Shown here piece after piece: positions 27,295 to 28,294 of a stretch of DNA of 28,294 nt. Position 1 is the stretch's first letter; each line of letters starts with the position of its first letter. The DNA is from a virus: positions 1 to 28,294 of IMG/VR virus record IMGVR_UViG_3300020385_000045; one strand, given 5' to 3'. The position numbers were made by a program, and so were the translations under genes. The notes under the pieces were generated by a model. The model was not told where the DNA came from. It saw only the letters and a program-made list of their open reading frames with translations, and did no database searches.

Positions 27295-27666
27295 CTAACT
27301 CAGGTCTATGGATACCGTAATTTCCCCTGCGTGCAAGTGAGCGACCTTGTCTGGTGCCTTAAAGCCTGCCCGATCCAGTATGTCCTTACTCGCCTCGAGT
27401 TGGACATACTCACTTCGGGCAGACCTACTAAGGCTAACCAGCCTACTGCAAGCTGACGTAGCATGGACTCCAAGGGAGTCTGCTACTGCTTGCATCATGT
27501 ACTGTTGTACATGAGGTCGCTTCAAAGCACGACTGGCACTCACTCTTCCCGATTCGCCTTTGGCATACCCCGCCATCTGCGAAGCATCCTTGATGCTCCC
27601 GCCAGATGCTACGAGGGTATCAACCAAAGCGATCTCTCGGGAAGTCAATTTACCTGCTAAATCCAT
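27295..27666 (-). CDS. Terminase small subunit (TerS)
   Basis: 123 residues. Helix-turn-helix region 'LTSREIALVDTLVASGGSIKDASQMAGYAKGESGRVSASRALKRPHVQQYM' (L-T-x-x-E...G-x-S-x-x-x-A-x-x-A-G-Y...A-L-x-R-P-x-V) is the TerS signature. 'LVSLSRSARSEYVQLEASKDILDRAGF' is the oligomerisation helix with the usual I-L-D-R-A-G-F. It recognises the packaging site and loads TerL. RBS AAAGG lies 7 bases before ATG 27666. The TCTAATGGC...GCCATTAGA hairpin containing two G7 tracts (minus strand) lies directly upstream, and the packaging site may be there. Confidence 0.87.
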   Translation of the reverse strand: MDLAGKLTSREIALVDTLVASGGSIKDASQMAGYAKGESGRVSASRALKRPHVQQYMMQAVADSLGVHATSACSRLVSLSRSARSEYVQLEASKDILDRAGFKAPDKVAHLHAGEITVSIDLS

Positions 27667-27736
27667 ACCTAAACCTTTCTAATGGCAATCAACAATCACC
27701 CCCCCTTGTTCCCCCCCATTCTTAGAGCCATTAGAA

Positions 27737-27855
27737 AACTTGTCAACGCACAAATGATAATGACATCCCTAAGAAGGGATGACTTTATTATTATTGTGCT
27801 AGACCAGAGAAAGGGCAGGATAACTGCCCATCTCTGTGTCTTCCGTTGACTAGTT
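27737..27855. repeat. Three-way junction 1 of the structured element
   Basis: Closing stem AACT-T-GTCAAC / GTTGAC-T-AGTT (T-T mismatch 27741/27851). Arm 1 (27748-27799) starts at the next base: GCACAA/TTGTGC, bulged A, seven more pairs, then CATCCCT/AGGGATG with loop AAGA. Arm 2 (27802-27840): GAC/GTC, CAGAGA/TCTCTG, GGGCAG/CTGCCC with loop GATAA. The arms touch the stem with almost no spacer. Late motif C lies across the stem and arm 1 (27744-27753). Confidence 0.75.
27744..27753 (-). promoter_or_regulatory. Late motif copy C (TTGTGCGTTG) before TerS
   Basis: Lies 77 bases upstream of the TerS ATG (minus strand), inside junction 1 of the structured element. It would give the terminase operon its own late start. 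Minus strand context is TATCATTTGTGCGTTGACAAG. Confidence 0.55.
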
Positions 27856-27888
27856 AGGTTTATAGGTAATGGATATAGTAACCAAGGA

Positions 27889-27947
27889 ACGATAGGCATC
27901 AGCAAGGACAAAGCAAATGGCTTTGGCTTGCTAGGAGGCCATATCGT
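27889..27947. repeat. Two-part hairpin of the structured element
   Basis: Outer ACGATAGGC / GCC-A-TATCGT (one bulged A), inner AGCAAG/CTTGCT and CAAAGC/GCTTTG with a five-base loop (27915-27919). Small asymmetric internal loops between blocks are typical of RNA helices. Confidence 0.75.
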
Positions 27948-27958
27948 GCCAGTCACAA

Positions 27959-28033
27959 ACTCACACTCGATTGTCTCATGGAATGAACTAGCTCTGCTAG
28001 TATTCCATTGAGAGAAGAATCGCATGTGTGAGT
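27959..28033. repeat. Long 75-base hairpin of the structured element
   Basis: Five stacked helices: ACTCACAC/GTGTGAGT, CGATT/AATCG, TCTC/GAGA, ATGGAAT/ATTCCAT and ACTAGC/GCTAGT, closed by a TCT loop (27993-27995). The blocks are separated by bulges of 1-4 bases. About 30 pairs, all Watson-Crick. Confidence 0.82.
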
Positions 28034-28047
28034 GCAGTACCCTCGTA

Positions 28048-28120
28048 ACATTCTGCCGTGGCACAAGCCTAATCAAGCCCTTATGTTATGACATAAGGTA
28101 GCTTGACTTAACGGCATTGT
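28048..28120. repeat. Three-way junction 2 of the structured element
   Basis: Closing stem TGCCGT (28054-28059) / ACGGCA (28111-28116), with ACA/TGT outside it. Arm 1 is GGC-ACAA-GCC (28060-28069). Arm 2 is TAATCAAGC / GCTTGA-C-TTA, continuing as CCTTATGT/ACATAAGG with loop TATG (28087-28090). No unpaired base separates the three helices. Confidence 0.82.
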
Positions 28121-28217
28121 CAGAGGCAACCAACCCTAGCGTCACTCCCTTAGACACTTGAACTCTTCTCCTCCTGACTAAAAAAAGAAGCCTGTCTAAA
28201 GGGAGTGTTGCCAACTG
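28121..28217. repeat. Terminal long hairpin of the structured element
   Basis: CAG/CTG, GGCAAC (28125-28130) / GTTGCC (28207-28212), then ACTCCCTTAGACA (28144-28156) with TGTCTAAAGGGAGT (28193-28206, one bulged A). Inside the 36-base end a small CTTCT/AGAAG stem with an A7 run. An unpaired 13-base insert (28131-28143) lies on the left side only. Confidence 0.78.
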
Positions 28218-28294
28218 TCGCTCCGCTGATGGAGACTCGTACTTCTCGAATTTTCTTTTGCGGTTTGTCATTCTCCATCTTGGTTAAATACTAG
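28218..28294. other. Right edge, nothing assignable
   Basis: A small CTCC/GGAG hairpin (28221-28234) may still belong to the structured element. On the minus strand a 42-codon frame (28278-28150) and a 61-codon frame (28271-28086) start here, both without a good RBS and both running into the hairpins. Neither can be supported as a gene. Confidence 0.4.

Follow-up and report, generated by a model that had tools for sequence, protein, structure and literature searches.

A putative giant rod RNA of marine phages that would join the antisense of an early gene to a mirror copy of the same gene

Background

GOLLD and ROOL are large ornate RNAs of phages, rich in branched domains and pseudoknots, that assemble into multimeric cages and are often encoded close to tRNA islands (PMC12286853). 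The element described here, located at one end of a viral DNA of 28,294 nt (hereafter the window, meaning the whole stretch analyzed), resembles them in that it would be a large, structured, phage-encoded noncoding RNA of unknown function. It differs from them in that a single rod is predicted, one arm of which is antisense to a gene. In addition, tRNA genes are often close to GOLLD and ROOL, whereas the window has none; a tRNA search of the window was empty, in agreement with an earlier note on this DNA.

The cabRNA of staphylococcal phages, about 400 nt in length, comes from inside terS/terL, was found by its binding to a cyclase, and activates the cyclase CdnE (PMC10686824). It is likewise a structured phage RNA of the terminase region with double-stranded parts, but it is derived from the terS/terL coding sequence, whereas the present element lies upstream of TerS and is predicted to form a long covarying rod. 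Obelisks are rod-like circular RNA replicons of about 1 kb with an ORF along one arm (PMC11922315). The present element resembles both obelisks and hepatitis delta virus as a near-complete predicted rod of about 1 kb, with a small protein from one arm or its complement. Hepatitis delta virus is a circular rod-like RNA replicon whose protein, like that of the present element, is specified by the strand complementary to the rod. Both, however, are circular RNA replicons, some with ribozymes, whereas the present element is encoded in a dsDNA phage genome, and an Rfam scan of six full rods revealed no self-cleaving ribozyme family.

Cis-antisense RNAs and structured RNAs from duplicated genes show further likenesses, namely the antisense of a gene in the former and a noncoding gene copy in the latter. 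To our knowledge, no described RNA joins the antisense of a gene to a mirror copy of it in one molecule, with covariation over the length of the gene. GOLLD, ROOL, obelisks, and cabRNA share one aspect each with the putative element, and none of them joins a gene antisense to a covarying mirror copy. A literature search for long inverted repeats or hairpin RNAs of pelagiphages found none.

Results and Discussion

The early/late junction of the phage

The virus of the window is a podovirus that encodes T7-like structural proteins, namely a head-tail adaptor, a major head protein, a tail protein, and an internal virion protein, as well as a RecE-like exonuclease. The closest named phage by TerL was Pelagibacter phage EXVC031P Hodr (64% identity). 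The late genes are on the minus strand, from TerS on through TerL, and the early genes are on the plus strand. The folded region studied here lies immediately upstream of TerS and reaches near the contig end. The features at the TerS side are as follows.

27295-27666, minus strand: TerS, the terminase small subunit gene (PHROG 2538, E 7e-10), directly downstream of the right arm of the predicted rod
27677-27736, minus strand: local inverted repeat TTCTAATGGC...GCCATTAGAA enclosing the -10 box and the G-runs, read from the sequence
27699-27717, minus strand: paired G-runs, G7-AACAA-G7, at or just past the expected transcription start
27718-27746, minus strand: predicted late-operon promoter facing TerS (TTGACA 27741-27746, 17 nt, AAGAAT 27718-27723), from sequence match

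The TTGACA box just upstream of TerS is kept in nearly all relatives, and the late promoter of the related locus L166 had 10 of 12 consensus matches. The whole arrangement (TTGACA, 17 nt, the -10 box, a G-run, a spacer, and a second G-run) was found in 64 of 90 distinct upstream regions, and the two G-runs were of equal length in 61 of these 64 (7/7 in 47, 6/6 in 12, and 8/8 in 2). The matched G-runs beside TerS are possibly a terminase site or a quadruplex. The inverted repeat around the -10 box and the G-runs has a compensated version, CTATTTGC...GCAAATAG, in L002.

TerS relatives were also observed in marine MAG contigs (L209-L213) labelled Rhodobiaceae, Euryarchaeota, and Gammaproteobacteria. 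As these are probably phage contigs that were merely binned with those taxa, the labels give no host identity.

Folding of the region upstream of TerS

The earlier note had proposed that positions 27678-28234 fold almost entirely into consecutive hairpins and two compact three-way junctions, as a candidate RNA of about 550 nt. The strong folding is real, as both strands exceeded dinucleotide shuffles: the predicted energy was -201 kcal/mol (z -7.7) for the plus strand and -219 kcal/mol (z -9.6) for the minus (TerS-sense) strand. G-U pairs were abnormally scarce (7.6% in the minus and 3.6% in the plus strand, whereas shuffles had about 13%). Strong folding of the 600 nt upstream of TerS was seen in most of 80 distinct upstream regions, including that of the window, with a mean z of -8.3 for the TerS-sense strand and -7.3 for the other strand.

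The Rfam searches that the earlier note had proposed found no family. There was no match at gathering thresholds in the window or 20 relatives, including the GOLLD, ROOL, OLE, and HEARO covariance models; loose thresholds gave nothing in the window and relatives, weak matches included, and the phi29-type pRNA family was not matched in the window. The folded region had no DNA similarity to named phages, and blastn across the family aligned mainly the TerS-proximal end, with most of the region failing to align. RNAalifold on subgroups of the upstream regions was uninformative, because G-U pairs are permitted by its model and the groups consisted of sequences either too similar or too divergent.

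A missing left arm

A scan for the G-run motif identified L166, which is 94% identical to the window over 2.7 kb and extends beyond the window edge; it was the only further relative of the window found with a copy-specific pattern. Comparison with L166 revealed that the contig of the window breaks off close to the loop of a larger predicted hairpin, so that this loop and the left arm are outside the window. The pairing partner of the arm in the window was therefore taken from L166. L166 carries an intact early gene of 161 aa that faces away from TerS (ORF at L166 410-895, minus strand), and the folded region is an inverted copy of this first early gene, including its 5' UTR and terminator, disrupted by indels and stops. 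The local alignment of the gene with the copy in L166 scored 478, and the maximum in 200 shuffles was 42. The corresponding features of the window end are as follows.

27738-28283, minus strand: right (3') arm, a mirror copy of the first early gene, inverted and with a broken reading frame, mapped from L166
27813-27829, minus strand: counterpart, within the right arm, of the early gene terminator hairpin (GGGCAGTTATCCTGCCC), aligned with the L166 gene terminator and terminator-like in a terminator scan
28284-28294, minus strand: last contig bases, just inside the loop side of the predicted rod; L166 runs on through the loop into the gene

When the left arm was included, L166 was predicted to fold as a rod of 465 bp with a longest helix of 28 bp. 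Of the 561 L166 bases equivalent to 27678-28234, the expected number pairing with the left arm was 382, and only 60 were expected in local pairs. Thus, by its predicted pairing, 27678-28234 is part of the 3' arm of a larger hairpin, and it pairs with the antisense strand of the first early gene. The helices listed in the earlier note, hairpins as well as stems resembling junctions, can indeed be drawn, but in L166 most of their bases pair with the distant left arm instead; what had been taken for a compact molecule with two three-way junctions is one arm of a predicted rod of about 1.3 kb, and this arm can alternatively fold into the local hairpins. When a segment of a fragment folds strongly, it may be half of a larger thing.

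It could still be argued that the arm acts as a stand-alone structured RNA of about 550 nt, made up of local hairpins and three-way junctions, with transcription starting in the loop and running towards TerS. A TTGACA box is present in the L166 loop, and the right arm alone folded strongly in the window/L166 and in L063 (z -5.7 to -11.5 in most strand folds). In five of the seven lineages tested (L139, L012, L002, L015, and L044), however, the arm alone was structured barely or modestly beyond shuffles (z -0.2 to -3.3). Moreover, the whole L166 rod, at -738 kcal/mol, was predicted to be far more stable than the two arms folded apart (-508 kcal/mol), and the covariation described below is with the distant gene. 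We consider a stand-alone RNA very unlikely.

A near-identical perfect hairpin (CACCCCTTCTTAGGGGTG / CATCCCTTCTTAGGGATG) occurs twice in L166, at 1067-1084 in the loop and at 1667-1684 at the end of the right arm.

Mirror copies in other lineages

At least eight divergent lineages carry mirror copies of about 500 nt of the first early gene. The same arrangement as in L166 was found in L002, L012, L015, L044, L063, and L139, and a scan with the gene family added L172, L177/L179, L180/L181, and L182-L186 to the copy-bearing loci. An inverted repeat of more than 60 nt was significant in 39 of 73 distinct upstream regions. In the checked loci of 8-14 kb, the sole inverted repeat at E < 1e-6, where any was found, was of the gene/copy type.

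Seven loci were compared all against all. Each gene was 76-85% identical to its own copy over 480-560 nt, and the early genes were mutually related; the copies had no match to the copies or genes of other lineages, with the exception of the close pair L015/L044. Most other relatives in the wider family have shorter rods of about 90-240 bp, in which G-U was usually commoner on the TerS-sense strand than on the opposite strand (about 10% vs 2-4% in most). Hodr, a cultured phage and the nearest named isolate, has no full copy.

Covariation of the gene and its copy

We then scored own pairing, that is, Watson-Crick or G-U pairing on the TerS-sense strand at the columns where the genes of two lineages differ. 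In all pairs with more than 20 gene differences (nine divergent pairs and two informative close pairs), 72-84% of such columns were paired between a gene and its own copy, compared with 27-43% when the copies were swapped. Concerted sites outnumbered cross sites by 109:0 in L172/L139, 135:1 in L166/L002, 25:1 in L015/L044, and 14:0 in L180/L181. In the close pair L177/L179, with 18 gene differences, own and swapped pairing were equal (0.47 each), and the pairs among L182-L186 had too few gene differences for covariation to be judged. Compensatory changes were thus found for the long-range pairing between gene and copy, rather than for the local helices drawn in the earlier note.

In L015/L044, 94 shared fixed differences between gene and copy were retained, and the copy tracked the gene at 25 sites; therefore, the copy appears to be old and to follow its gene rather than to be freshly made. 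By these comparisons, the gene and its mirror copy appear to have evolved in step across marine phages.

Two mechanisms of copying with mutation were rejected. Adenine-directed retro-mutagenesis was ruled out by the substitution spectrum, and a diversity-generating retroelement with template and variable repeats does not fit, as all four bases were changed, not template adenines alone, and the copy is inverted.

Strand asymmetry

The differences between gene and copy that give G-U pairs were strongly biased to the TerS-sense strand, with counts for this and the other strand of 61:0 in L172, 48:5 in L177, 55:5 in L139/L171, and 42:7 in L180; the bias was weaker in L166 (28:11) and L186 (12:4). 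In a strand-neutral fold that forbids G-U, single GT and AC mismatches of the longest rods numbered 27:0, 24:1, 20:0, 17:1, and 15:1, those of L166 8:2, and those of coding controls 84:55. A direction-free comparison of close pairs, made to exclude simple mutation bias, counted exchanges of a Watson-Crick pair with G-U and with A-C; the ratio was 39:12 in copies and 17:6 in genes. For the L139 rod, the predicted energy was -683 kcal/mol when the TerS-sense strand was folded and -460 kcal/mol for the opposite strand. The G-U share of pairs was 9-12% in the L012, L063, and L139 rods and 5-7% in others. The mismatch bias of the longest rods points to an RNA of the TerS-sense strand. Correction of a quasi-palindrome as the sole cause of the hairpin was rejected: it accounts for the low G-U of the window, but not for the strand-specific G-U bias and the covariation elsewhere.

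A DNA structure was also considered. A cruciform in dsDNA is disfavoured because no strand asymmetry would be expected from it, yet the bias is extreme in the longest rods. A single-stranded hairpin of the TerS-sense strand, formed while the genome is replicated or concatemers are processed and serving as an origin or as an intermediate of packaging, would escape this objection, and folded ssDNA had also been raised in the earlier note: G-T is also tolerated in DNA, so strand bias alone cannot separate RNA from ssDNA. The early/late junction beside TerS suits a packaging or replication site, to which the paired G-runs could belong as part of a terminase site, and a search to the left of the gene for a promoter of the full-length TerS-sense RNA found none above shuffles. 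Nevertheless, the G-U share in the L012, L063, and L139 rods is of the order usual for RNA, and the copy covers exactly the transcription unit of the gene. We therefore judge the ssDNA hairpin to be unlikely.

Anatomy of the predicted rod

The predicted rods are about 1.1-1.4 kb in length, and their arms pair over roughly 400-500 bp with a mismatch or bulge about every 5 bp. In the 12 loci measured, uninterrupted pairing had a mean of 3.4-6.2 bp and a longest stretch of 14-31 bp. The left arm spans the entire transcription unit of the gene to its own terminator, and the right arm stops at the TerS promoter. In most of the 12 loci the bulges had a polarity, the right arm having its extra bases mainly in the half nearer the loop and the left arm in the distal half; the L139 and L172 rods had few bulges. 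No convincing periodicity of mismatches along the rod was found. The style of mismatch varied: among the loci noted for it (L012/L174, L172, L177, and L179 vs L166 and L002), G-A/A-G prevailed in the L012 and L177 types and pyrimidine-pyrimidine in L166/L002.

Each of the eight lineages whose gene is of the KLxVVNHH type had one or two UUUUAG bulges per copy, at a constant position relative to the gene, and the motif (TTTTAG in DNA) was absent from the gene arms. The copies of the divergent L015/L044 gene type were without these bulges. The window has a double version, corresponding to CUUUUAGUA...UUUUAG in the copies whose gene is of the KLxVVNHH type.

28178-28201, minus strand: two bulges, CUUUAG at 28196-28201 and UUUUAG at 28178-28183, corresponding to the motif in KLxVVNHH-type copies

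These features bear on whether the palindrome is a functionless scar, such as would remain if the early gene were repeatedly duplicated in inverted orientation, the arms exchanged sequence by gene conversion, and decay were strand-biased. Each copy resembles its own gene only, the palindrome is located at a quasi-palindromic junction, some copies have no local structure, and concerted sites could also arise by gene conversion. On the other hand, independent lineages keep the UUUUAG bulges at the same gene position, the bulge polarity is kept in most lineages, and the direction-free changes favour G-U over A-C by 56:18 overall. Conversion of the whole tract would also have erased the 94 fixed differences that L015/L044 retain beside the 25 followed sites. 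A scar is thus a quite improbable explanation.

A putative rod RNA and its possible role

The copy, the potential for long-range pairing, the covariation with the gene, and the strand-specific G-U signal can all be read from the sequences themselves. From these we conclude that the minus (TerS-sense) strand of the locus probably encodes a giant rod-like noncoding RNA with a length of about 1.1-1.4 kb. Its 5' arm would be antisense to the first early gene, whose product is a small protein predicted as a long helical hairpin, and its 3' arm would be a noncoding mirror copy of the whole transcription unit of that gene. Against this, the G-U bias in the window/L166 is weaker than in most loci, and the copy there also folds well locally. 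The earlier suggestion of a large unrecorded structured phage RNA beside TerS stands in this modified form, with the covariation and the strand-specific G-U signal in its favour and no Rfam match.

The early gene product belongs to no Pfam or PHROG family. The helical hairpin was predicted with moderate confidence (mean pLDDT 79, pTM 0.64), and a fold search found no significant match in the PDB or viral models. We can only speculate about a link to Rop and other helical RNA-binding proteins. The chances seem somewhat better than even that these loci represent a new class of phage RNA, in which antisense and mirror copy form one molecule with co-evolving arms, possibly bound by the protein of the complementary strand.

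As to function, the likeliest candidate in our view, although at clearly less than even odds, is an early-to-late switch element at the early/late junction that would lock the early-gene antisense in cis. TerS-sense transcription through both arms, as well as its effect, is inferred. Transcription across the early gene would produce an antisense RNA, and the mirror arm, coming next, would capture it in cis, so that it would not anneal to the early mRNA in trans; the interruptions of the rod would leave no long perfect duplex for RNase III. The missing promoter for the full-length RNA is the main weakness of this switch model. A role as a scaffold or decoy, or a role of the DNA in packaging, is also possible.

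If the rod RNA is real, abundant marine podoviruses carry a giant duplex RNA from the strand opposite a protein gene, and a single stretch of DNA is under constraint twice, for its protein product and, at every base, for its pairing in one arm of an RNA rod; overlapping information would here be taken to an extreme. The rod would be a DNA-encoded counterpart to the rod-like replicons (viroids, hepatitis delta virus, and obelisks), and would offer a concrete test of how a phage keeps a long duplex RNA despite RNase III and RNA-sensing defences.

The strand bias was reversed in a subgroup that lacks the G-run motif (L006, L007, L042, L043, L046, L050, L051, and L168, the last being Hodr). In the G-U-free fold, GT and AC mismatches summed to about 16:36 over these members, which are not independent of one another; the bias is as if a structured RNA were made leftward.
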